64,000 nucleotides of DNA from Pseudomonas cavernicola. GTDB lineage: Bacteria > Pseudomonadota > Gammaproteobacteria > Pseudomonadales > Pseudomonadaceae. The notes under the pieces are model-generated. The model worked only from the letters and a program-made list of their open reading frames with translations. It made no database searches and was not told the DNA's origin. The stretch is from NCBI RefSeq assembly GCF_003596405.1, contig NZ_QYUR01000002.1, positions 1,194,501-1,258,500 of the forward strand, written 5' to 3'. The translations under genes and the position numbers were made by a program. This document shows positions 5,084 through 45,983 of this stretch, piece by piece (positions within the stretch are counted from its first letter, which is position 1; every line of letters starts with the position of its first letter).

Positions 5084-6508
<1,425 letters not shown>

Positions 6509-33515: not shown

Positions 33516-33793
33516 CGCACGAATCCAATGCGTGGCGATGTAGGTGGGAGTGATTCTGCGAGCGCCGTGGGGTTCGCGAAGTTATCTAATTTGTCGCGGC
33601 TGAAGCTAAAAAACCTATATCCAAAGCCTTCTGCCATGCAGGCTCCGCGCTTTCCGTGCGGGCAGCTTTTTCCTAGCCAGCGAGTACAAAAATCATAATT
33701 TCGCGAATCCCTGGTTCTGAACAGAATGCGGCCAACACCCACAGATAGCCGCAACAGTAGAACAACAATGTTCAGAATCAGAGGAGGCAAGCC
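33516..33793. promoter_or_regulatory. Promoter region of the monooxygenase operon
   Basis: This 278-base stretch is richer in A/T than its surroundings. It holds the perfect palindrome TTCTGAACAGAA (33715-33726) and, 43 bases further on, TGTTCAGAA (33769-33777), the inverse of the palindrome's core. These are candidate regulator sites for the operon starting at 33794, and the second lies next to the GAGGAGG ribosome-binding site (33781-33787). Confidence 0.45.
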
Positions 33794-35185
33794 ATGACCG
33801 ACCTGAATCAAACCGCCTTTCAGAAGTACACAGGCATGACAGTTGAAAAAATAGAAATAGATACGCTTGTTGTTGGCGCCGGTCAGGCCGGCGTGGCCAT
33901 GAGTGAACACCTGAGCAAACTCGGGGTGCCCCACCTCGTCCTGGAGCGCAATCGTATCGCCGAAGGCTGGCGCACGGGACGCTGGGATTCGCTGGTTGCC
34001 AATGGTCCGGCCTGGCACGATCGTTTCCCGGGTCTGGAGTTCGACGATCTCGAGCCCGACGCCTTTGCCCCGAAAGAGCGGGTTGCGGCTTATTTCGAAG
34101 CCTATGCCAAGAAGTTCAACGCCCCCATCCGCACCGGTGTGGAAGTGAAGAAGGTGGAACGCAATGCTGGCCGCCCGGGCTTCACTATTGAAACCTCCGA
34201 GGGCGTGATCGAGGCCAATCAGGTGATTGTCGCAACCGGCCCCTTCCAGCGCCCTGTTGTTCCGCCGATCGCTCCTAAAGATGAGAAGCTCACACAGATC
34301 CACTCTGCCGAGTATCGTAATCCTGAGCAACTGCCCGAGGGGGCTGTGCTGGTGGTGGGTGCCGGGTCGTCGGGTGTGCAGATCGCGGATGAGCTGCAAC
34401 GTGCCGGCAAGCAGGTCTACCTTTCGGTCGGCGCGCACGATCGCCCGCCACGCGCCTATCGCAACCGTGACTTCTGCTGGTGGCTCGGCGTTCTCGGTGA
34501 ATGGGATGCGGAGGGCGTCCAGCCGGGCAAGGAGCATGTCACCATCGCAGTAAGCGGTGCGCGTGGCGGCCATACGGTTGACTTCCGCAGACTTGCCCAT
34601 CAGGGGATGACGCTCGTTGGCCTGACCAAAGCGTTCAATGAAGGTGTGGTGACCTTCGCATCGAATCTTGCGGACAACCTTGCTCGCGGTGATGAGAACT
34701 ATCTGGCGCTGCTCGATGCTGCTGACGCCTATATCGCCCGCAATGGTCTGGACCTTCCGGAAGAACCTGAAGCCCGCACCATGCTCCCGGATCCGGAATG
34801 TGTGACCAACCCCATTCTTGAGCTCGATCTGGCCGAGGCCGGCGTGACCTCGATCATCTGGGCAACGGGCTATTCAGTTGATTACAACTGGCTGAAGGTC
34901 AACGCCTTCGACGCAAACGGCAAGCCGCAGCATCAGCGCGGTGTTTCGACCGAGCCTGGCGTCTATTTCGTGGGCCTGCCGTGGCTGTCGCGTCGTGGCT
35001 CCGCGTTCATCTGGGGCGTTTGGCACGATGCCAAGCATATTGTTGACCACATCGTAAAACAGCGCACCTATCTCGACTATCGGGATGCCTCGCAACGCCA
35101 GGCAGAGGCTGATCTAAAGCAAATGCCTGATGGCGCACAGCCCGATTCGCACATTCAAAAAGCCAGCCTTATGGGAGTCCGTTGA
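33794..35185 (+). CDS. Flavin-containing monooxygenase (CzcO/FMO-like)
   Basis: A 463-residue class B flavoprotein monooxygenase. The FAD-binding loop GAGQAG is at about 28-33 and the NADPH loop GAGSSG at about 189-194; between them LTQIHSAEYRNP resembles the FMO fingerprint (His and Tyr of FxGxxxHxxxY), and WATGYSVDYNWL is the second fingerprint. Such enzymes oxygenate nitrogen or sulfur or insert oxygen next to a carbonyl. Its stop overlaps the RidA start by one base, so it opens a coupled operon of four genes. It uses more A/T-ending codons than its neighbours, a hint of separate origin. Substrate unknown. Confidence 0.85.
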   Translation: MTDLNQTAFQKYTGMTVEKIEIDTLVVGAGQAGVAMSEHLSKLGVPHLVLERNRIAEGWRTGRWDSLVANGPAWHDRFPGLEFDDLEPDAFAPKERVAAYFEAYAKKFNAPIRTGVEVKKVERNAGRPGFTIETSEGVIEANQVIVATGPFQRPVVPPIAPKDEKLTQIHSAEYRNPEQLPEGAVLVVGAGSSGVQIADELQRAGKQVYLSVGAHDRPPRAYRNRDFCWWLGVLGEWDAEGVQPGKEHVTIAVSGARGGHTVDFRRLAHQGMTLVGLTKAFNEGVVTFASNLADNLARGDENYLALLDAADAYIARNGLDLPEEPEARTMLPDPECVTNPILELDLAEAGVTSIIWATGYSVDYNWLKVNAFDANGKPQHQRGVSTEPGVYFVGLPWLSRRGSAFIWGVWHDAKHIVDHIVKQRTYLDYRDASQRQAEADLKQMPDGAQPDSHIQKASLMGVR

Positions 35186-35595
35186 TGCCTACTCACACCC
35201 GCATCCGCATGTTCAACACCAAAGACACCTACCCGAACCAGACGCTCGACAACGACCTGTGCCAGGCCGTGCGCGCCGGCAACACCGTGTATGTCCGTGG
35301 CCAGGTGGGTACCGATTTCAACGGCCAGCTGGTCGGCCTCGGCGACCCGCGTGCCCAGGCCGAACAGGCAATGAAGAACGTCAAGCAACTGCTGGAAGAG
35401 GCCGGCAGCGACCTCAGCCACATTGTCAAGACCACCACCTACCTGATCGACCCGCGCTACCGCGAGCCGGTCTACCAGGAGGTCGGCAAGTGGCTCAAGG
35501 GCGTGTTCCCGATCTCCACCGGCCTGGTGGTCTCCGCTCTCGGCCAGCCGCAATGGCTGATGGAGATCGACGTGATCGCCGTGATTCCTGACTGA
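35185..35595 (+). CDS. RidA family reactive imine/enamine deaminase
   Basis: A 136-residue Rid protein. The core RAGNTVYVRGQVGTD, DPRAQAEQAMKNVKQLLEEAGS and VKTTTYLIDPRYREPVYQEVGKW is present. The Arg required for imine hydrolysis in RidA (usually in a C-terminal CxPRxx segment) is not at a clear equivalent place: the C-terminus reads ISTGLVVSALGQPQWLMEID, so it may belong to a Rid4-7-like branch rather than RidA proper. It starts on the last base of the monooxygenase stop (TGATG) and ends 9 bases before the DUF1028 gene. Confidence 0.85.
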   Translation: MPTHTRIRMFNTKDTYPNQTLDNDLCQAVRAGNTVYVRGQVGTDFNGQLVGLGDPRAQAEQAMKNVKQLLEEAGSDLSHIVKTTTYLIDPRYREPVYQEVGKWLKGVFPISTGLVVSALGQPQWLMEIDVIAVIPD

Positions 35596-35604
35596 GGTGA
35601 TGTG

Positions 35605-36282
35605 ATGACCTTCTCCATAGTCGGCCGTTGCGCCGAGACCGGCCAGCTCGGCATTGCCATAAGCTCTTCCAGCATCGCCGTGGGGGCGCGCTGCCCCTGG
35701 CTGCGCGCCGGGGTCGGCGCGGTTGCCACGCAGAACATCACCCTGCCGGCCCTCGGCCCGGATATTCTCGACCTGCTGGACGCCGGACTGGCGCCTCTCG
35801 CGGCGATGGATCGGGCGCTGGCCAGCAACGGGTTCAGCCAGTACCGCCAGCTCGCGGTGATCGACAGCCAGGGCCGTACCGCGCTGTTCACCGGCAGCGA
35901 GGCGCTCGGCGTGAATAACGCCGTGGCCGGCGAGCAATGCGTGGCGGCCGGCAATCTGCTGGCCGGCCCGCAGGTGATCGCGGCCATGGTCGCCGCCTTC
36001 GAGGCGCATGCCGGCGAGCCCCTGGCGGATCGCCTGCTGGCGGCCATGAACGCTGCGGTTGCGGCTGGTGGCGAGGCCGGGCCGGTGCATTCGGCGGCGC
36101 TCTCGGTGGTCAGCGATCTGCTTTGGCCGCTGGTCGACCTGCGGGTGGACTGGGCCGAGGAAGACCCGCTCGGCGAGCTGGGCAAGCTGTGGAGCGCTTA
36201 CCGGCCGCAGATGCAGGACTACGTCACCCGCGCGCTGGACCCGACCCAGGCGCCGAGCTACGGCGTGCCTGGCGATGAGTGA
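35605..36282 (+). CDS. DUF1028 protein
   Basis: A 225-residue protein of the DUF1028 family, distantly like Ntn hydrolases. The N-terminus TFSIVGRCAETGQLGIAISS begins with Thr right after Met, which would suit an Ntn nucleophile if Met is removed. ARCPWLRAGVGAVATQNIT, AVIDSQGRTALFTGSEA and AVAGEQCVAAGNLLAGPQV are the family core. Proteins of this kind are often found near peptidases and Rid proteins in amino-compound catabolic operons, but no activity is established to my knowledge. It starts at ATG 35605 (a GTG three bases earlier is possible) and overlaps the M20 gene by 8 bases. Confidence 0.85.
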   Translation: MTFSIVGRCAETGQLGIAISSSSIAVGARCPWLRAGVGAVATQNITLPALGPDILDLLDAGLAPLAAMDRALASNGFSQYRQLAVIDSQGRTALFTGSEALGVNNAVAGEQCVAAGNLLAGPQVIAAMVAAFEAHAGEPLADRLLAAMNAAVAAGGEAGPVHSAALSVVSDLLWPLVDLRVDWAEEDPLGELGKLWSAYRPQMQDYVTRALDPTQAPSYGVPGDE

Positions 36283-37438
36283 AGCGCGCAGCCGTGAACT
36301 GCTGGCCCAGCTGATCGCCTTCAACACCGTCAGCCGCGAATCCAATCTGGCGCTGATCGAATTCATCCGCGACTACCTGGCCGGCTTCGGGGTCGAGAGC
36401 GAGCTGTTGTTCAACGCCGAGCGGACCAAGGCCAACCTGTTCGCCACCCTCGGCCCCCGGGACTGCGGCGGGGTGGCGTTGTCCGGGCATACCGACGTGG
36501 TGCCGGTGGAAGGCCAGGCCTGGACGGTCGATCCGTTCAAGTTGAGCGAACAGGACGGCCGGCTCTATGGCCGCGGTACGGCGGACATGAAGGGCTACCT
36601 GGCCTGCGTGCTGGCGGCGGTGCCGCGTTTTCTCGCGCAGCCGCTGCGCCTGCCCGTGCATCTGGCATTTTCCTATGACGAGGAGGTCGGCTGTCTCGGC
36701 GTGCGCTCGTTGCTGGACGCACTGGAACGGCGCGAGCACAAGCCGATCGTCTGCATCATCGGCGAGCCGACCGAGATGCGCCCGGTGCTCGGGCACAAGG
36801 GTAAGCTCGCCATGCGCTGCTGTGTGCAGGGCGCCGCCTGCCATTCGGCCTATGCGCCGCAGGGGGTGAATGCCATCGAATACGCCGCCCGGCTGATTGG
36901 CAAGCTCGGTCAGATCGGCGAACGCCTGGCCGCGTCGGGCCAGCATGACGCGCGCTTCGACCCGCCCTATTCAACGGTGCAGACCGGCGTGATCAGCGGC
37001 GGCAGGGCGCTGAACATAGTCCCCGCTGAATGCCAGTTCGATTTCGAGGTACGCGCCTTGCCGGACTTCGATGCGCAGCAGGTCGCCGAACAACTGCAGG
37101 ATTACGCCACGACCGAACTGCTGCCGAAGATGCAGGCGATCCAGGCCGAGACGACGATCCGTTTTCAGCCGCTGAGCGCTTATCCAGGCCTGGCGACCGA
37201 TCCGCAGAGTGAAGCTGCTGAATTGATCGCGCTGCTCAGTGGGTCACGCGAGTTCGGCACCGTGGCCTTCGGTACCGAAGGCGGCCTGTTCGCTCAGGCG
37301 GGTATTCCAACCGTGGTCTGCGGCCCCGGCAGCATGGACCAGGGGCACAAGCCGGACGAGTTCGTCAGCATCGAGCAGTTGCGGGCCTGTGATGGGTTGC
37401 TGGACAGGCTGGCGGAGCTGCTCCAGGCCGGCGCCTAG
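36275..37438 (+). CDS. M20 family deacylase, ArgE-like
   Basis: A 387-residue zinc hydrolase close to acetylornithine deacetylase (ArgE) in length and motifs. The zinc ligands lie in SGHTDVVPVEGQ (His, Asp), GRGTADMKGYL (Asp), FSYDEEVGCLG (catalytic Glu and ligand Glu) and GPGSMDQGHKPDEFV (His). The start at 36275 gives MSEARSRELL and lies inside the end of the DUF1028 gene. Because it sits in a catabolic operon with a monooxygenase, a role in removing an N-acyl group from the substrate is more likely than arginine synthesis. Confidence 0.88.
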   Translation: MSEARSRELLAQLIAFNTVSRESNLALIEFIRDYLAGFGVESELLFNAERTKANLFATLGPRDCGGVALSGHTDVVPVEGQAWTVDPFKLSEQDGRLYGRGTADMKGYLACVLAAVPRFLAQPLRLPVHLAFSYDEEVGCLGVRSLLDALERREHKPIVCIIGEPTEMRPVLGHKGKLAMRCCVQGAACHSAYAPQGVNAIEYAARLIGKLGQIGERLAASGQHDARFDPPYSTVQTGVISGGRALNIVPAECQFDFEVRALPDFDAQQVAEQLQDYATTELLPKMQAIQAETTIRFQPLSAYPGLATDPQSEAAELIALLSGSREFGTVAFGTEGGLFAQAGIPTVVCGPGSMDQGHKPDEFVSIEQLRACDGLLDRLAELLQAGA

Positions 37439-37440
37439 AA

Positions 37441-37496
37441 GTAGGGCGGATGAAACCCGCGCGTTGGCGAGGCCAGGCGGGTTGCACCCGCCCTAC
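37441..37496. repeat. GTAGGGCGGATGAAACCC-type repeat, copy 3
   Basis: GTAGGGCGG at the left and CCGCCCTAC at the right are inverted, with GGGTTGCACCC near the right end. It lies between the convergent M20 and LysR genes and could fold into a shared terminator hairpin. Confidence 0.7.
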
Positions 37497-37501
37497 ATGG
37501 C

Positions 37502-38425
37502 TCACTCGCCAGGCGTTTCGGTTTGCGGCGCCAGCTGCTCCTTGCAGTAGTCGACGAACAGTTGTGCCGGCTTGGTCAGCGGTGCGCGTTTCAGCCAGGC
37601 GGCCACCAGCCCTGAGGTGGTCACCGGCTCGGCGATCTCCAGCATCACCACCTTCTGCCCGTCGTAGGTGCACTCCGAGTGCGGGCGGGTGACCAGCACC
37701 GAGAAGCCGAAACCCTGGCCGACCATGCCGCGGACCATCTCGATCGACGGTGAGCTGAAGGCGATATGCGGGCTCAGGCCGAGCTCCTCGAACAGGCTGA
37801 CGAAATAGGTGCGGCTCGGCTGCACGTCGAGCAGGATCATCGGCTCCAGCGCCAGGTCGCGAAGTGACACCTGCGCCTGATGGGCGAAGCGGTGGCCGTC
37901 CGGTAGCAGCGCGTAGGGGCGCTGCGGAGGCATCAGTGGCTCGGTTTCGATGGTCGAGTCGAGGTCGTGCTGGTAGAGGATCGCCAGGTCGAAACGCCCG
38001 GCGGTCAGGCCCTGCACCAGCTCCTGCTGCTCGCCGTCGCGCAGGCGGATTTCCACCCCCGGATAGAGCGCGTTAAAGCCGGCGATCAGGCGTGGCAGGT
38101 AGAGCGGGGCGACGGTCTCGAAGCAGCCGATATCGATCTGCCCGGCCACCACATCGAGGTCGGCCAGGGCGTTCTGTTCGAACTCCTTGGCCATGCGCAG
38201 CAGTTCCTGGGCCTTGCGGTAGAAGCGCGCACCACCTGGGGTCAGCGACACACCCTGGGCATGATGGCGGATGAGCAACTGCAGGCCAAAACTCTCTTCC
38301 AGCCCCTTGATCGCGGTGGAGATCGATGGCTGGGCGATATACAGCTTGCGCGAGGCCTCGGCCACGCTGCCGCATTCCACGGTGGTCACGAAATACTTCA
38401 GTTGCCGCAGGGTATAGGAAGCCAC
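37502..38425 (-). CDS. LysR family regulator of the amine-catabolic cluster
   Basis: A 307-residue LysR-type regulator with helix-turn-helix TLRQLKYFVTTVECGSVAEAS and LYIAQPSISTAIKGLEESFG. I favour the GTG at 38425 because GAGG lies 6-9 bases upstream; another GTG at 38449 would add eight residues. It is convergent with the monooxygenase operon and divergent from the aldehyde dehydrogenase operon, so it is well placed to control both. Its effector could be the cluster's substrate or an intermediate. Confidence 0.9.
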   Translation of the reverse strand: MASYTLRQLKYFVTTVECGSVAEASRKLYIAQPSISTAIKGLEESFGLQLLIRHHAQGVSLTPGGARFYRKAQELLRMAKEFEQNALADLDVVAGQIDIGCFETVAPLYLPRLIAGFNALYPGVEIRLRDGEQQELVQGLTAGRFDLAILYQHDLDSTIETEPLMPPQRPYALLPDGHRFAHQAQVSLRDLALEPMILLDVQPSRTYFVSLFEELGLSPHIAFSSPSIEMVRGMVGQGFGFSVLVTRPHSECTYDGQKVVMLEIAEPVTTSGLVAAWLKRAPLTKPAQLFVDYCKEQLAPQTETPGE

Positions 38426-38819
38426 AAAAACCTCGTTTTTTGCCCGCACGCCGGTGAATCGAAAGGGGGCAGCTTATTGTCATTAATGGGCCAATCCGCG
38501 AAGCTCCAGGCTCAGCAATTTGCGCGACTCACGAACTCGAGCGCTGGCGCAAAGCCGCTATTTTCCTGCTCTGGCGGAGCCCTCGCGAACAGAATCCAGC
38601 GAGCCGCCGCAAGCTTGCCCCGGCAGCTCCGGCGGAGCATGTGCGCCACTGCACAATAACCCAGCACGCTGCACTTTGTTGGGGCTGGGCTAACCAGCTT
38701 TTTCGTATACCCCGAACACATATTTAATATTTTTCCTAAGCCGCACCTTCGGCCACTATCGATCGCATCCAAAACCACCATGACCGGCCATGATCGGTCG
38801 CAGGCGAGGGAGCTCGGTA
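38426..38819. promoter_or_regulatory. Divergent promoter region of the LysR gene and the aldehyde dehydrogenase operon
   Basis: This 394-base gap carries an A/T-rich stretch at about 38690-38745 (CACATATTTAATATTTTTCC) that would suit a promoter. I see no clear T-N11-A dyad. No gene is evident within it. Confidence 0.4.
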
Positions 38820-40310
38820 GTGTTCGAACTCAGTGATTGGCAACAACGTGCGCGTACCCAGCGCTTCATCGACCGGGCCCTAATCGGCGGCCGGCAGGTC
38901 GCCGCCGAGTCCGGCGCGACCTTCGCGGCGATCAACCCGGCGACCAACCGGCTGCTGGCGAATGTCGCCGCCTGCGGTGCCGCCGAGGTCGACGCCGCCG
39001 TGCGCGCCGCGCGTCAGGCCTTCGATAGCGGCCCCTGGGCGCGCATGGCACCGGTGGAGCGCAAGCGCGTGCTGCTGCGCCTGGCCGAGCTGATCCTGGC
39101 CAATCGCGAGGAACTGGCCCTGCTCGATTCGCTGAACATGGGCAAGCCGGTGATGGACGCCTACAACATAGACGTGCCGGGCGCCGGCGGGGTGTTCGCC
39201 TGGTATGCGGAAAGCCTCGACAAGCTCTACGACCAGGTCGCGCCCACCGCGCAGAACGCCCTGGCCACCATCACCCGCGTGCCGCTCGGGGTGGTCGCGG
39301 CGGTGGTGCCGTGGAACTTCCCGCTGGATATGGCGGCCTGGAAGCTCGCCCCGGCGCTGGCCGCAGGCAACTCGGTGGTCCTGAAGCCGGCCGAGCAGTC
39401 GCCGTTCTCCGCCTTGCGCCTGGCCGAACTGGCGCTGGAAGCCGGGCTGCCGGAAGGCGTGCTGAGCGTGGTGCCGGGTCTCGGCGAGAGTGCCGGCAAG
39501 GCGCTCGGCCTGCACCCGGATATCGACTGCCTGGCCTTCACCGGCTCGACCGAAGTCGGCAAATATTTCATGCAGTACTCGGCGCAGTCGAACCTCAAGC
39601 AGGTCTGGCTGGAGTGCGGCGGCAAGAGCGCCAATCTGGTGTTCGCCGATTGTCAGGATCTCGATCTGGCGGCGGAGAAGGCCGCCTTCGGCATCTTCTT
39701 CAACCAGGGCGAGGTCTGCTCGGCCAACTCGCGGCTGCTGGTGCAGCGCTCGATCCACGATGAGTTCGTCGAGCGCCTGATCGCCAAGGCCCGCCACTGG
39801 CAGCCGGGCGATCCGCTGAACCCACAAAGCCGCGCCGGTGCCATAGTCGACACGCGGCAGGCCGATAGCGTGATGGGCTTTATCGACAGCGCCCGCACCA
39901 GTGGTGCGAACTTGGTCTGCGGTGGCCAGCGTCTGAGCTACAACGGCTCGAGCAACTTCATCGAGCCGACCATCTTCACCGGCGTGGGTGCGGACATGCG
40001 CCTGTCCCGTGAAGAGGTGTTCGGCCCGGTGCTGGCGGTGACCCCCTTCGATGACGAAGAGCAGGCCGTGCGCCTGGCCAACGACAGCGTCTACGGGCTG
40101 GCTGCCTCGCTGTGGAGCGACGACCTCAACCGCGCCCATCGTGTGGCCCGGCGCCTGAATGCCGGCACCGTGTCGGTGAATACCGTCGACGCCCTCGACG
40201 TCAGCGTGCCCTTCGGCGGCGGCAAGCAGTCCGGCTTCGGCCGCGATCTGTCGCTGCACTCCTTCGACAAGTACACCCAACTGAAGACCACCTGGTTCCA
40301 GCTGCGCTGA
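38820..40310 (+). CDS. PuuC-like aldehyde dehydrogenase
   Basis: A 496-residue NAD(P)-dependent aldehyde dehydrogenase. Catalytic C300 is in FFNQGEVCSANSR, the general base E265 in QVWLECGGKS, and N166 in VVPWNFPLD; NAD-binding FTGSTEVGKYF is intact. Many stretches resemble PuuC, the gamma-glutamyl-gamma-aminobutyraldehyde dehydrogenase of putrescine breakdown, and KauB of Pseudomonas. The start is the GTG at 38820 behind GCGAGGGAGC; an ATG at 38790 is less likely. It is probably the second oxidative step after the aminotransferase at 41839. Confidence 0.92.
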   Translation: MFELSDWQQRARTQRFIDRALIGGRQVAAESGATFAAINPATNRLLANVAACGAAEVDAAVRAARQAFDSGPWARMAPVERKRVLLRLAELILANREELALLDSLNMGKPVMDAYNIDVPGAGGVFAWYAESLDKLYDQVAPTAQNALATITRVPLGVVAAVVPWNFPLDMAAWKLAPALAAGNSVVLKPAEQSPFSALRLAELALEAGLPEGVLSVVPGLGESAGKALGLHPDIDCLAFTGSTEVGKYFMQYSAQSNLKQVWLECGGKSANLVFADCQDLDLAAEKAAFGIFFNQGEVCSANSRLLVQRSIHDEFVERLIAKARHWQPGDPLNPQSRAGAIVDTRQADSVMGFIDSARTSGANLVCGGQRLSYNGSSNFIEPTIFTGVGADMRLSREEVFGPVLAVTPFDDEEQAVRLANDSVYGLAASLWSDDLNRAHRVARRLNAGTVSVNTVDALDVSVPFGGGKQSGFGRDLSLHSFDKYTQLKTTWFQLR

Positions 40311-40351
40311 GAGTCGGGGGCCCATTACAACAACAAGAGCGGGAAATACAG

Positions 40352-41785
40352 ATGACTGAAAGTACAAGCCTACCCTTACAGGCGCCGGCGTCGGCGACCG
40401 CCGCGACGCCGGGCGGCCTGCGCCGGGTGCTCGGCCTCGGCTCGCTGCTGGCAGTGGCCGTCGGGGTGGTGGTGTCCCAGGGCGTGATGGTGCTGATGCT
40501 GCAAGGTGTCGGCGTCGCCGGGCCGGGCTTCCTGATCCCGCTGGGGCTGGCCTATCTGTTGGCGCTGACCTACGCGTTTTCCTTCTCCGAGCTGGCGTTG
40601 ATGATCCCGCGAGCGGGCAGCCTGAGCAGCTACACGGAAGTTGCCATCGGCCAGTTCCCGGCGATCCTGGCGGTCTTCTCGGGTTACGTGGTGGTGGCCA
40701 TGTTCGCCCTGTCCGCCGAACTGCTGCTGCTCGACCTGATCATCGGCAAGGTCTATCCCGGGGTGTTCCCGCAGTTCAGCGTCGCCTTCGGGGTGCTTGG
40801 CCTGTTCACCCTGCTCAACCTGCTGGGCCTCGACATCTTCGCCAAGCTGCAGACAGTGATGGCGGTAGTCATGGTGGTGGTGCTGCTGCTGCTGGGGCTG
40901 AGCGCTCTCGCCAGCGATACGCCAGTGCTGGAGCCCGCTGCATTGCTCGGCGGCGACTGGAATCCGCTCGGCGTGGGCGTGTTCGCCCTCACCGCGATGG
41001 CTGTCTGGGGCTTCGTCGGCGCCGAGTTCGTCTGCCCGCTGGTGGAGGAGACGCGCCGGCCGGAACGCAATATCCCGCGCTCGATGATCATCGGCCTGAG
41101 CATCATCTTCGCGACCATCGCTCTGTATTGCCTCGGCGCGCTGCTGACGGTGCCGCAGGCGGAGTTGGCGAGCAACGGCCTGCCGCATTACCTGTTCGCC
41201 ACCACGGTGTTCGGCGAGAGCGGCCAGCTGTTCCTAGTAGCCGCGGCGATCACCGCCACCTGCAGCACCCTCAACTCCTCGCTGGCGGCGATTCCACGGA
41301 TGCTCTACGGCATGGCGCAGAACGGCCAGGCCTTCCCGCTGTTCAAGCGCCTCAGCCCGCGGGCCCGTACGCCTTGGGTGGCCGTGCTGTTCGTCGCGGC
41401 CATCACCGGCCTGCCGATCCTGCTGATGGGCCAGGACGCGGCAGCGATCAACCTGTTGCTGCTGGCCGCCGCCCTGGCCTGGCTGCTGGCCTACATCATC
41501 ACCCACATCGACGTGATCGCCCTGCGCCGGCGCTACCCGCAGATCGCCCGGCCGTTCCGTACGCCCTTCTATCCCTGGCCGCAGGTCATCGGCATCGCCG
41601 GCATGCTCTACGCCATCTGGTACGCCTCGCCGGCGCCGGAAATGACCGGGAAGATCTTCGGCATCGCCGGGCTGGTGCTGGGCCTGGTGTCGCTGATCGC
41701 GATCCTCTGGATCAAGCTGGTGATGCGCAAGCCGCTGTTCGTGCCCGAGCCGCTTGAAAAGGCGCTGAACCCGGACCAAGCCTGA
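40352..41785 (+). CDS. APC superfamily amino acid/amine permease
   Basis: A 477-residue transporter with 12 predicted membrane helices. The N-terminal soluble stretch is followed by LGLGSLLAVAVGVVVSQGVMVLMLQGVG (helix 1, with the unwound glycine region), SFSELALMIPRAGSLSSYTEVAIG (the APC helix 2-3 signature), GFVGAEFVCPLVEETRRPERNIPRSM and C-terminal helices. Relatives carry amino acids and polyamines such as putrescine. It lies 41 bases after the dehydrogenase gene in the same operon. The start at 40352 gives MTESTSLPLQ. Confidence 0.9.
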   Translation: MTESTSLPLQAPASATAATPGGLRRVLGLGSLLAVAVGVVVSQGVMVLMLQGVGVAGPGFLIPLGLAYLLALTYAFSFSELALMIPRAGSLSSYTEVAIGQFPAILAVFSGYVVVAMFALSAELLLLDLIIGKVYPGVFPQFSVAFGVLGLFTLLNLLGLDIFAKLQTVMAVVMVVVLLLLGLSALASDTPVLEPAALLGGDWNPLGVGVFALTAMAVWGFVGAEFVCPLVEETRRPERNIPRSMIIGLSIIFATIALYCLGALLTVPQAELASNGLPHYLFATTVFGESGQLFLVAAAITATCSTLNSSLAAIPRMLYGMAQNGQAFPLFKRLSPRARTPWVAVLFVAAITGLPILLMGQDAAAINLLLLAAALAWLLAYIITHIDVIALRRRYPQIARPFRTPFYPWPQVIGIAGMLYAIWYASPAPEMTGKIFGIAGLVLGLVSLIAILWIKLVMRKPLFVPEPLEKALNPDQA

Positions 41786-41838
41786 AGGCTGCAAATTCAG
41801 AAGTACTGTTGATACCCCCTGAGGGGAGGAGAGCTGTG

Positions 41839-43221
41839 ATGAATACCCAGATTAAGGGAAACCGTGAAACCCGTGAGTACCAGGCGCTGGACGCCGCCCA
41901 CCATATCCATGCCTTCCTCGACCAGAAGGCGCTGAATGCCGAGGGCCCGCGGGTAATCGTGAAGGGCGAGGGCCTGTACCTGTGGGACAACGACGGCCAG
42001 CGCTATCTGGACGGCATGTCCGGCCTGTGGTGCACCAACCTCGGCTACGGCCGCAAGGACCTCAATGCCGCCGCCGCCCGCCAGCTCGAGCAGCTGCCGT
42101 ACTACAACATGTTCTTCCACACCACTCACCCGGCGGTGGTGGAGCTCTCCGAGCTGCTCTTCAGCCTGCTGCCCAGCCACTACAGCCACGCGATCTATAC
42201 CAACTCCGGCTCCGAGGCCAACGAGGCGCTGATCCGCACCGTGCGCCGCTACTGGCAGATCCTCGGCAAGCCGCAGAAGAAGATCATGATCGGTCGCTGG
42301 AACGGCTACCACGGCTCGACTCTGGCCGCGACCGCCCTGGGCGGGATGAAGTTCATGCACGAGATGGGTGGCATGATCCCCGACGTTGCGCACATCGACG
42401 AGCCCTACTGGTACGGCCACGAAGGCGACCTGACGCCGGCCGAGTTCGGCCTGCGCGCCGCCCGCCAACTGGAAGAGAAAATCCTCGAACTGGGTGCGGA
42501 AAACGTTGCGGCCTTCATCGCCGAACCGTTCCAGGGCGCCGGTGGGATGATCTTCCCGCCGGAAAGCTATTGGCCGGAAATCCAGCGCATCTGCCGCCAG
42601 TACGACGTGCTGCTGTGCGCCGATGAGGTGATCGGTGGCTTCGGCCGCACCGGCGAATGGTTCGCCCATGAATACTTCGGCTTCGAGCCGGACACCCTGT
42701 CGATCGCCAAGGGTCTGACTTCGGGTTACATCCCGATGGGCGGGCTGGTGCTTTCCAAACGCATGGCCGAGGTGTTGGTGGAGCAAGGCGGGGTGTTCGC
42801 CCACGGCCTGACCTACTCGGGGCACCCGGTGGCCGCCGCCGTGGCTACCGCCAACCTCAAGGCGCTGCGCGACGAGGGTGTGGTCACTCGGGTCAAGCAG
42901 GAGACCGGCCCCTATCTGCAACGCTGCCTGCGCGAGGTGTTCACCGATCACCCGCTGGTCGGCGAAATCCAAGGTGCCGGGATGGTCGCCGCCCTGCAGT
43001 TCGCCGAGGACAAGGCCACGCGCAAGCGCTTTGCCAACGAGGCCGACATCACCTGGAGCTGCCGCACCCATGGTTTCGAAGAGGGGTTGATCATCCGCGC
43101 CACCCTCGGCCGGATGATCATGGCGCCGGCCCTGGTGGCCAGCCACAGCGAGCTCGATGAACTGGTGGAGAAGACCAAGCGCGCGGTGGATCGCACAGCG
43201 CAGGAACTGGGGCGGCTGTAA
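41839..43221 (+). CDS. Class III aminotransferase, SpuC-like (polyamine/omega-amine:pyruvate type)
   Basis: A 460-residue PLP-dependent aminotransferase. The PLP lysine is K291 in SIAKGLTSGYIPMGG, D262 in LLCADEVIGGFGRTGEW contacts the pyridine nitrogen, and TNSGSEANEALIRTV and WNGYHGSTLAATALGGM are the phosphate and ring contacts. From memory it closely follows SpuC, the putrescine:pyruvate aminotransferase of Pseudomonas. It would turn a terminal amine into an aldehyde for the dehydrogenase at 38820. The ATG at 41839 follows a strong GGGGAGGAG site. Confidence 0.92.
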   Translation: MNTQIKGNRETREYQALDAAHHIHAFLDQKALNAEGPRVIVKGEGLYLWDNDGQRYLDGMSGLWCTNLGYGRKDLNAAAARQLEQLPYYNMFFHTTHPAVVELSELLFSLLPSHYSHAIYTNSGSEANEALIRTVRRYWQILGKPQKKIMIGRWNGYHGSTLAATALGGMKFMHEMGGMIPDVAHIDEPYWYGHEGDLTPAEFGLRAARQLEEKILELGAENVAAFIAEPFQGAGGMIFPPESYWPEIQRICRQYDVLLCADEVIGGFGRTGEWFAHEYFGFEPDTLSIAKGLTSGYIPMGGLVLSKRMAEVLVEQGGVFAHGLTYSGHPVAAAVATANLKALRDEGVVTRVKQETGPYLQRCLREVFTDHPLVGEIQGAGMVAALQFAEDKATRKRFANEADITWSCRTHGFEEGLIIRATLGRMIMAPALVASHSELDELVEKTKRAVDRTAQELGRL

Positions 43222-43359
43222 GCCGGCCCCGGCGTTCCATTCCCCGTACTACCTATCACGCCGGCCCGTAGCGGCCGGCGCGACGGAACCCTTTTGGCCT
43301 TAGGCCAATGCTGTCCCGCAAATCCAATAACTAAAGCCGATAGGCTGTGGGAGTGTTCC

Positions 43360-44343
43360 ATGATCAAGTCCTTGCTCAAGCGTTCCTCGCTGTCCCTTGC
43401 AACCACCGCACTGGCCGTTGGCGTCGTCACTGGCGCCCAGGCCGGCACTCTGTCCATCGGCCATACCACCTGGGTTGGTTATGGCACGCTGTATCTGGCT
43501 CGCGATTTGGGCTACTTCAAGGAGCAGGGCCTCGACCTGCAGCTGACCACCATGGAGGAGTCCTCGATGTACATGGCCGCCCAGGCCTCCGGCCAACTCT
43601 CCGGCTCGGCTTCGACCATCGACGAGATCCTCAAATACCGTCCGCAGTTTTGCTTCAAGGCGGTGGCCGCGCTGGATGACAGCTACGGCGGTGACGGCGT
43701 GCTGGTGGGCAAGGAGGTCAACAGCCTGCAGGAGCTCAAGGGCAAGGCGATCGCGGTCAACGAGGGTTCGGTCTCGCAGTTCTGGCTGTCCTATCTGCTC
43801 AAGCAAAACGGCATGTCCATGAGCGATCTGCAGGTGCAGAACATGACCGCCGACGACGCCGCCACCGCCTTTATCGCCGGGCGCATTCCGGCCGCGGTGA
43901 CCTGGGAGCCGCACCTGTCGCTGGTGCGCCAGAAAGGTCAGGGCAAGGTGCTGATCGACAGCACCAAGACGCCCGGGATCATCGTCGATGTGGTGGCGCT
44001 CAACTGCGACGTCATCGAGAAGCAGCCGGAAGACGTCAAGGCGCTGGTCAACGGCCTGTACAAGGCTGTGCAGTACACCAAGGAGCATCCGCAGGAGGCC
44101 TACGCGATCATGGCCAAGGGCGTCGGCGGCTATCTGGCCGATCCGCTCGAGATGGCGAATGCCGCCAAGGGCGTGCGCTTCTATGACCAGCCCATGAGCG
44201 AAAAACTGCTCGGCACTCCCGGCAAGCCCGGTGACATCGCCGAGTTGATCGAGCTGGCCAACCAGACCTGGAGCTCACTGCAAGGCAAACCCTTTGCCGT
44301 CAGCTACGACGACCTGGTCGACAGCACATTCGTCAGCCCTTGA
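43360..44343 (+). CDS. ABC transporter substrate-binding protein, SsuA/TauA (NMT1) type
   Basis: A 327-residue periplasmic binding protein. Signal peptide MIKSLLKRSSLSLATTALAV with cleavage near AQAGTLS; the core TTWVGYGTLYLARDLGYFKEQGLD, SASTIDEILK and IAVNEGSVSQFWLSYLLKQNGM matches the NMT1/SsuA/TauA family, whose members bind sulfonates, taurine, thiamine precursors and other small acids or amines. No sulfonate monooxygenase is nearby, so a nitrogen compound is as likely. It begins 138 bases after the aminotransferase and 12 bases before the permease gene. Confidence 0.9.
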   Translation: MIKSLLKRSSLSLATTALAVGVVTGAQAGTLSIGHTTWVGYGTLYLARDLGYFKEQGLDLQLTTMEESSMYMAAQASGQLSGSASTIDEILKYRPQFCFKAVAALDDSYGGDGVLVGKEVNSLQELKGKAIAVNEGSVSQFWLSYLLKQNGMSMSDLQVQNMTADDAATAFIAGRIPAAVTWEPHLSLVRQKGQGKVLIDSTKTPGIIVDVVALNCDVIEKQPEDVKALVNGLYKAVQYTKEHPQEAYAIMAKGVGGYLADPLEMANAAKGVRFYDQPMSEKLLGTPGKPGDIAELIELANQTWSSLQGKPFAVSYDDLVDSTFVSP

Positions 44344-44355
44344 GCGGAGGCAATC

Positions 44356-45159
44356 ATGGCCAATTCAAAATCATGGCTTAACCGCTGCCTGACGCCCAAG
44401 GTCGACTTGCCGGCCAAGCTGCTTCTCGGCGCCAGCACAGTCTGTTGGCTGCTGGTGATCGGCCTTTGGGCCGGGCTCTCCTACGGTGGCGTGGTACCGA
44501 CGATGTTCCTGCCCACCCCCGGCGCGGTGCTGGAGGCGGCCGCACGTCTGGGTAGCGACGGCACCCTGGCGCAACACGTCTGGGCCAGCGTCGAGGTGGT
44601 GCTGATCGGCTTCATCGTCTCCTCCCTGGTGGCGGTGCCGCTGGGGCTGCTGATGGGCAGCTTCCGCATCGTCCAGGCGTTCCTCGAACCGCTGGTGAAC
44701 TTCATCCGCTACCTGCCGGTGACCTCCTTCGTGCCGCTGTTCATCCTCTGGATCGGCATCGGTCTGGAGCAGCGGGTGACGGTGATCATCTTCGGCGTGT
44801 TCTTCCAGCAACTGGTGATGATCGCCGACGTCTCCAAGGGCGTGTCCAAGGACCTGATCAACGCCTCCTACACCCTGGGCTCCAATCGCCGCGATGTGCT
44901 CTTCCACGTGCTCGGCCCGGCGTCGCTGCCGGGCGTGCTGGATACCCTGCGGGTGACCATGGGCTGGGCCTGGACCTACCTGGTGGTGGCCGAACTGGTC
45001 GCGGCGTCCAGCGGCCTCGGTTACATCAGCTTGAAGGCCATGCGCGGCTTCCAGGTCGATGTGATTTTCCTCGCCATCGCCATCATCGGCCTGCTGGGCC
45101 TGGTGACCGATCAACTGTTCCGACTTCTTCGACTCAAGGTGGCCTCATGGGCGCAGTAG
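44356..45159 (+). CDS. ABC transporter permease, SsuC/TauC type
   Basis: A 267-residue inner-membrane permease with about six helices. The family opening LLVIGLWAGLSYGGVVP, the middle helices (SVEVVLIGFIVSSLVAVPLGLLMG) and the coupling loop INASYTLGSNRRDVLFHVLGPASLPG are typical of SsuC/TauC. VAELVAASSGLGYI is also family-like. It overlaps the ATPase gene by 13 bases. Confidence 0.93.
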   Translation: MANSKSWLNRCLTPKVDLPAKLLLGASTVCWLLVIGLWAGLSYGGVVPTMFLPTPGAVLEAAARLGSDGTLAQHVWASVEVVLIGFIVSSLVAVPLGLLMGSFRIVQAFLEPLVNFIRYLPVTSFVPLFILWIGIGLEQRVTVIIFGVFFQQLVMIADVSKGVSKDLINASYTLGSNRRDVLFHVLGPASLPGVLDTLRVTMGWAWTYLVVAELVAASSGLGYISLKAMRGFQVDVIFLAIAIIGLLGLVTDQLFRLLRLKVASWAQ

Positions 45160-45983
45160 CAGCGGTGCAACGTGACGATGCGGTTTCGTTAGCGGCACAA
45201 ATCGGGGCTCCGGCGCGCTTGCGCGTCGACGCGGTCAGCCTGCAGTACCAGACGCCCAGCGGCTCGACCTTCACCGCCTTGGACAAGGTCTCCTTCGAGG
45301 TGCCGGATCAGCAGTTCGCGGTGCTGGTCGGCCCCTCCGGTTGCGGCAAGTCGAGCCTGCTGTATCTCACCGCCGGCCTGGCCGAGCCGAGCGCCGGCAG
45401 CATCCATGTCGGCGGTCGGCAGGTCGAGGGGCCGGGCGTCGACCGCGGCATGGTGTTTCAGAGCTATACGCTGTTCCCCTGGCTGACGGTACGGCAGAAC
45501 ATCGAGTTCGGTCTCAAGCGCCGCGGCATGCCGGCCAGGCAGCGCGCCGAGATAGTCGACTTCTACCTCAACGAAGTCGGCCTCGCGCAGTTCGCCGATA
45601 ACTATCCCAAGCAGCTCTCCGGCGGCATGATGCAGCGCGTGGCGATCGCCCGCGCGCTGGCCAACGATCCGCAGATTCTGCTGATGGATGAACCCTTCGG
45701 CGCGCTGGATAGCCAGACCCGTTTGCAGATGCAGCAACTGCTGCTGCGGGTGTGGGGTAACAGCAAGAAGACCGTGCTGTTCGTCACCCACGACATCGAC
45801 GAGGCGATTCTGCTTGGCGACCGCGTCTATGTGATGGGCGCCCGTCCGGGGCGGATCAAGAAGATCCTCGATGTGCCGATCGAGCGTCCGCGCACGCTGG
45901 ACATGGTCATGGAGCGCTCGTTCATCGAGATGAAACGCGAGATCTTCGGCCTGCTGCACGACGAGCTGGAAGAGGCGCACTGA
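45147..45983 (+). CDS. ABC transporter ATPase, SsuB/TauB type
   Basis: A 278-residue ATPase. Walker A is GPSGCGKSS, the Q-loop is VFQSYTLFPWLTVRQNIEFG, the signature is LSGGMMQRVAIARA, Walker B is ILLMDEPFGALDS, and the H-loop is FVTHDIDEA. These are typical of importers in the SsuB/TauB class. It ends the operon; a short hairpin repeat (45991-46019) follows and could terminate transcription. Confidence 0.94.
   Translation: MGAVAAVQRDDAVSLAAQIGAPARLRVDAVSLQYQTPSGSTFTALDKVSFEVPDQQFAVLVGPSGCGKSSLLYLTAGLAEPSAGSIHVGGRQVEGPGVDRGMVFQSYTLFPWLTVRQNIEFGLKRRGMPARQRAEIVDFYLNEVGLAQFADNYPKQLSGGMMQRVAIARALANDPQILLMDEPFGALDSQTRLQMQQLLLRVWGNSKKTVLFVTHDIDEAILLGDRVYVMGARPGRIKKILDVPIERPRTLDMVMERSFIEMKREIFGLLHDELEEAH

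Follow-up and report, generated by a model that had tools for sequence, protein, structure and literature searches.

The question raised by this locus of Pseudomonas cavernicola is which compound is processed by the eleven open reading frames that lie at positions 33,794 to 45,983 of the stretch analysed here (64 kb, called the window; position 1 is its first letter), in two blocks around a single LysR gene. The original prediction was a possible new amine or N-acyl-amine system without a named pathway. Our analysis indicates instead that the locus holds the known histamine catabolic (hin) genes of Pseudomonas, assembled in one place under the control of HinK, with the enzymes that lead from histamine to aspartate and with two import systems. 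We put the probability of this assignment at about 93%. It rests here on the relatedness and order of the genes, on their co-occurrence, on two common operator-like sites and on the fold of HinH; the reactions, the ligand of HinK and transport by HinA are taken from published work. The core of the pathway is already known. The new parts are a candidate ATP-binding cassette (ABC) importer, its probable membership of the HinK regulon and a proposed fold-based mechanism for HinH.

Assignment of the locus to the hin genes

The genes were assigned as follows; percentages are identities to the relatives in P. aeruginosa PA7, and the starts of hinL, hinH, hinG, hinA, hinC and the binding-protein gene are refined ones.

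33794..35185, + strand: hinF, FAD monooxygenase for imidazole-4-acetate, first gene of a four-gene block (80%)
35185..35595, + strand: hinL, Rid-family enamine deaminase, PF01042 (97%)
35605..36282, + strand: hinH, DUF1028 protein (PF06267) with Thr at position 2, assigned to the amidase step (82%)
36275..37438, + strand: hinG, M20 deacylase, N-formylaspartate deformylase (79%)
37502..38449, - strand: hinK, LysR-type regulator (89%)
38790..40310, + strand: hinD, aldehyde dehydrogenase, imidazole-4-acetaldehyde to imidazole-4-acetate (84%)
40352..41785, + strand: hinA, APC-family histamine permease of the PA0220 type (79%)
41839..43221, + strand: hinC, histamine aminotransferase (86%)
43360..44343, + strand: SsuA/TauA-type periplasmic binding protein, candidate histamine binder from context and motif evidence
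44356..45159, + strand: ABC permease of the same importer
45147..45983, + strand: ABC ATPase of the same importer

All genes named in the original prediction are open reading frames at these places, and their families hold. Block A (hinF, hinL, hinH, hinG) has intergenic gaps of -1, 9 and -8 bases, and block B (hinD, hinA, hinC and the three ABC genes) of 41, 53, 138, 12 and -13 bases. The monooxygenase matches PF13738 and PF00743, and the Rid protein matches PF01042. With 242 bits to PF06267, the DUF1028 protein is the single match in the whole 5.63 Mb genome. The M20 protein exceeds the cut-off of PRK07522 (592 bits, cut-off 412). The class III aminotransferase passes the cut-offs of PRK12403 (990 bits, cut-off 817) and of PRK07480, which we take to be the SpuC type. 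PuuC is indeed the top model of the aldehyde dehydrogenase, which had been called PuuC-like, but the 632 bits are below the cut-off of 850 and PuuC is therefore the nearest model only. No NCBIfam model cut-off was reached by the APC permease. For the LysR protein, the top PDB matches 6m5f (603 bits) and 3fzv (601 bits) are both labelled 'probable transcriptional regulator'. A classification of the monooxygenase as an MSMEG_0569-family flavin oxidoreductase was rejected, since TIGR04046 gave 378.3 bits and fell short of its cut-off of 498.35.

According to the accessible text of PMC8231116, HinABCDFLHGIJK are required for histamine degradation in P. putida U. In P. aeruginosa PAO1, the same text gives hinK as PA0218, hinD as PA0219, hinA as PA0220, hinC as PA0221 and a binding protein as PA0222, and hinF, hinL, hinH and hinG as PA5393, PA5392, PA5391 and PA5390; all of these, including PA0222, are induced by histamine. 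The accessible parts of PMC6467879 describe HinF as an FAD-monooxygenase (EC 1.14.13.5) and HinL as an enamine deaminase (its Table 3), HinH as an amidase and HinG as an amidase (EC 3.5.1.8). A histamine defect of a PA0220 mutant, together with proposed steps for PA0219-0221, dates from 2008 (PMC2542419, as far as its text is accessible).

The PA7 relatives of the flavin monooxygenase, Rid, DUF1028 and M20 proteins stand in the published order of the hinFLHG block, and those of the LysR regulator, aldehyde dehydrogenase, APC permease and aminotransferase in that of the hinK-hinD-hinA-hinC block. They correspond to HinF, HinL, HinH, HinG, HinK, HinD, HinA and HinC, respectively; for HinH, the assignment follows from the F-L-H-G gene order and by exclusion. 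Thus all six enzymes, HinC, HinD, HinF, HinL, HinH and HinG, are encoded at the locus. A histamine permease orthologue is present in the form of the APC protein, whose PA7 relative occupies the PA0220 place, and hinK is divergent from hinD, as expected for the hin system. Within each block, PAO1 has the same genes in the same order (hinK-hinDAC-PA0222 and PA5393-PA5390), but there the blocks are far from each other whereas in the window they lie together. PA7 differs in having another type of binding protein after hinC, at the PA0222 place, and no SsuABC-like genes within the 12 kb examined. With the P. putida U system (hinABCD, hinFLHG, hinIJ and hinK), the window has the functions of HinF, L, H, G, C, D and K and the hinFLHG set in common, a likeness that is based on published descriptions and the PA7 relatives; the hin genes of that strain are spread over four genomic regions and include the further regulators HinB and HinJ, in contrast to the one locus found here, with its PA0220-type HinA and the ABC importer.

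A pathway for polyamines, N-acetyl-polyamines or acyl-amines is highly improbable. The nearest model of the aldehyde dehydrogenase, PuuC, and a PotF-like binding protein 3.4 kb downstream would suit such substrates. However, the FMO (flavin monooxygenase), Rid, DUF1028 and M20 proteins correspond to HinF, L, H and G, and in the accessible literature it is relatives in the same order that carry the histamine phenotype and induction; these phenotypes and the matching PA7 gene order displace the polyamine candidate. The expectation of a nitrogen-compound pathway with import, aldehyde-to-acid oxidation and deacylation fits the published histamine route, while the chemistry had been placed in a different order: in that route, transamination and aldehyde oxidation by HinC and HinD come first, HinF follows and the M20 protein HinG acts last.

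An operator-like motif in both hin promoters

A palindromic motif, approximately AAAATAATATTTT, was learned from hin promoters by a model-based search. Once near-duplicates had been discarded, the training set comprised 63 hinF and 35 hinD stretches, which are related to one another. Motif scores were 242-619 compared to 22-40 for letter shuffles, of which two per set were run with fewer starts than the real sets. In an initial dyad count of the promoters, the best dyad occurred in at most 27% of the stretches. With a matrix from 82 training stretches, which excluded the window and loci L114-L141, the two best sites in the 64 kb were the following.

38717..38737, unstranded: HinK-like operator, hinK-hinD intergenic region, 27.0 bits, best in 64 kb
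33685..33705, unstranded: HinK-like operator, hinF promoter, 25.0 bits, second-best in 64 kb

The next site in the window reached 9.1 bits. This set still contains loci that seem to come from the same genomes as the excluded ones (for example L053, L079 and L045), represented by their hinF and hinD stretches only. A matrix trained on hinF stretches only, with the window excluded, placed the hinF promoter first (24.0 bits), the hinD promoter second (19.2 bits) and the next site at 9.5 bits; a 21-base matrix from hinD stretches only ranked hinD first and hinF second. Both promoters are thus predicted to carry HinK-like operators. In the accessible text of PMC8231116, HinK responds to imidazole-4-acetate and binds the hinD and hinF promoters; nothing further on operator sites or the importer was found in the accessible parts of PMC10912698 and PMC10606097.

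An exact pattern search of the P. cavernicola genome returned three places: the hinF promoter, the hinD promoter and C2:262015. Allowing up to two mismatches gave 116 places versus 65 for a reversed control, so the search is weak beyond exact matches. The 6.5 kb around C2:262015 hold only frames of at most 231 codons. A sigma-70 scan carried no information, with 2 matches and 1.9 expected.

Co-occurrence of the two blocks

A search of named genomes with the FMO protein was evaluated for the best 80 of at least 587 confirmed loci, with flanks of up to 10 kb and some contigs ending early. FMO, Rid, DUF1028 and M20 genes stand together in 78 of these 80, which argues that block A is more than chance; L046 lacks Rid and L057, on a short contig, lacks M20. 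The closest named relatives among these loci are from Pseudomonas. At least 25 of the 80 hold an aldehyde dehydrogenase, APC or aminotransferase gene of at least 60% identity in the same locus, a lower bound because of the limited flanks, and in several other species block B genes are shuffled into block A.

Among 119 same-genus genomes, hinF (at least 74% identity) is present in 69. All genomes with hinD (51/51), hinC (55/55) and hinK (68/68) fall inside these 69, absence being defined by the E-value limits used (Fisher tests for co-occurrence with hinF: 2e-18, 5e-21 and 5e-33, respectively). The hinF count leaves out 8 of 77 genomes that have only a 62-67% FMO relative, and the subset statements hold for the 77 as well. 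The co-occurrence proposed as a check of the original prediction was therefore found. From this joint presence, the shuffling in other species and the common operator-like motif we conclude that both blocks serve one pathway, as had been suggested.

Further observations were made in these genomes. In 14 of the 119, hinF is present without hinC or hinD, and 13 of these have hinK; perhaps such genomes use imidazole-acetate and not histamine. In five genomes (G020, G037, G056, G063 and G098) hinK is present twice, with one copy next to hinD and the other next to hinF or an NCS1-family permease gene. Thirteen genomes encode a member of a second group of FMO proteins with 62-67% identity to HinF; in 8 of them it is the only FMO and in the other 5 an additional one. 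The gaps of 22 loci were examined, and 9 of these loci carry, next to hinD, a gene for a choline-dehydrogenase-like GMC oxidoreductase (L134:8585-10219, - strand; the one member scanned); some of the nine are probably from the same genome.

The SsuABC-like importer

We lean, with some reserve, towards the SsuABC-like system being a HinK-controlled histamine importer that fills the role of the APC permease in many pseudomonads. Its binding protein has relatives of 75-94% identity in 28 same-genus genomes besides its own, and all 29 genomes are within the 69 with hinF. The binding-protein gene is at most 12 kb from hinD in 29/29 genomes and at most 12 kb from hinF in 11/29. It is found in none of the 14 hinF genomes without hinC or hinD, compared to 29 of the 55 with them (p = 1.7e-4). 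Across the 55 hinC genomes, 2 (the window's included) have both APC and ABC importers, 12 only APC, 27 only ABC and 14 neither (p = 0.0014); the APC count leaves out G114, a genome without hinC that has a 47% APC match. On this reading, pseudomonads would exchange unrelated importers (APC, ABC and perhaps NCS1) for one another in a conserved histamine pathway.

An own HinK-like site of at least 15 bits precedes the binding-protein gene in 10 of 28 loci, compared to 4 of 1712 background 300-base windows from the same loci. These 28 loci give 29 upstream stretches, one of them not a true upstream stretch as the gene is in two pieces in L141; among the 17 counted as distinct, 7 score at least 15 bits. 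On this motif evidence, the importer is a probable member of the HinK regulon. Histamine as its cargo is our inference, and we regard the system as a new candidate and a likely histamine importer. We found no account of such a histamine ABC importer in the literature searched, whose coverage left out most subscription papers.

The importer might instead carry imidazole-4-acetate, or another imidazole that feeds the lower pathway, which we consider rather unlikely. SsuA-type proteins mostly bind acids, and APC and ABC systems do coexist in two genomes. The importer also resembles a HinK target by its site, and HinK responds to this acid (PMC8231116, accessible text). However, the ABC genes follow hinD and not hinF, are missing where hinF occurs without hinC or hinD, and are rarely found alongside the APC histamine permease. 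In addition, there is another candidate for the acid: an NCS1-family permease (PF02133; L139:9718-11118, - strand). Relatives of 44-49% identity occur in 38 genomes, in 26 of them close to hinF or hinK and in just 1 close to hinD or hinC. This candidate imidazole-4-acetate importer is not significantly commoner in genomes without hinC or hinD (10/14 versus 28/55, p = 0.23). Eleven of the 14 hinC genomes with neither an APC nor an ABC importer hold an NCS1 relative, which is close to hinF or hinK in just 4 of these genomes.

That the system imports sulfonates or taurine and is a mere neighbour of the hin genes is a still less probable reading. The protein search gave 1514 relatives of the binding protein at 1e-40; the named ones among the best 120 are from pseudomonads, and some of these are called 'taurine ABC transporter' or 'NitT/TauT family'. 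The nearest models of the ABC proteins include SsuA_fam, TauC, SaoP and SaoA, none of which reached its cut-off; the scores (cut-offs) were 131.6 (163.5) for SsuA_fam, 122.6 (342) for TauC, 99.1 (347) for SsuC and 240 (357) for the taurine ATPase. Against sulfonate as cargo stand the constant adjacency to hinD, the own HinK-like sites and the anti-association with APC, and no sulfonate-cleaving enzyme is among the listed models of the eleven proteins. Within 369 genomes of the class, the search with the binding protein matched its own genome only. The structure model of this protein is poor (pLDDT 59.6).

Several results weigh against the assignment of the locus or of the importer. HinA of P. 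putida U is only 17% identical to PA0220 (PMC8231116, accessible text). The Fisher values overstate independence, because the genomes are related. Separation of the blocks in most genomes had been named as an observation that would speak against a common pathway; they are indeed apart (beyond 12 kb) in 32 of the 55 hinC genomes, the other 23 having hinF no more than 12 kb from hinD or hinC, yet remain tied by joint presence and motif. A 15-base matrix from hinD stretches only places the hinF site 9th in the window. Which ABC loci show a site of their own varies with the matrix: 9 did with an earlier version and 10 with the stricter one, 7 being common to both. Finally, in the window itself no own site precedes the ABC genes (at most 5.2 bits), and the importer would therefore be read on from hinD across the 138-base gap between hinC and the binding-protein gene, where a hairpin is not unusual (z -1.75).

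HinH and the proposed pathway

HinH has the Ntn-hydrolase (N-terminal nucleophile hydrolase) fold and, next to the initial Met, one of the residues of this class (Ser, Thr or Cys). A Met-Thr start was seen in 100 of 100 matches, and T2 is invariant across 34 aligned sequences. Identity to taspase-1 and HslV, which are Ntn-hydrolases like proteasome subunits, is about 12-17%. From the fold we infer that HinH may use Thr2 as nucleophile on an amide. With the Met-Thr start, only removal of Met and no self-cleavage should be needed. Our literature searches returned no paper on DUF1028 and none on a Rid/FMO/deacetylase cluster.

In the proposed pathway, histamine would be brought in by HinA and probably by the SsuABC-like importer. 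HinC would convert it to imidazole-4-acetaldehyde and HinD would oxidise this to imidazole-4-acetate, which would let HinK act at the hinF and hinD promoters. HinF would then oxidise the imidazole ring of imidazole-4-acetate. HinL and HinH together would open and de-amidate the ring product to N-formylaspartate, with N-formyl-isoasparagine as an intermediate; the division of labour between the two proteins is presumed. HinG would finally release formate and aspartate. For an aspartase, which would pass the product on to the TCA cycle, the model TIGR00839 scores 683.9 bits (cut-off 681.2) at about 5105-6487 of the window; it matches 14 of 14 control genomes, 3 above the cut-off.

Genomic setting

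Upstream of the cluster lie pstSCAB-phoU, a response regulator gene and the gene of an M23 peptidase-like protein. Genes of a trypsin/TPR protein, an S58 peptidase, the PotF-like binding protein, a CorC/PaeA-like protein and phoR-phoB follow downstream. The hin cluster thus sits between phoU and phoBR (23817-54848). Locus L114 is flanked in the same way at either end. At this place L122 carries block B alone, the phoBR flank is seen in L140, and in L012 block A follows pstB-phoU.

Implications

For this locus, a possible new amine system is replaced by a named pathway. A function is suggested for a binding protein now labelled 'taurine', 'NitT/TauT' or plain 'ABC transporter', and a high-affinity histamine-binding protein, if this holds true, would be useful for biosensors and for the removal of histamine from food. 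Additionally, DUF1028, whose function Pfam gives as unknown, would gain a concrete mechanism as a threonine Ntn amidase in the breakdown of the imidazole ring.

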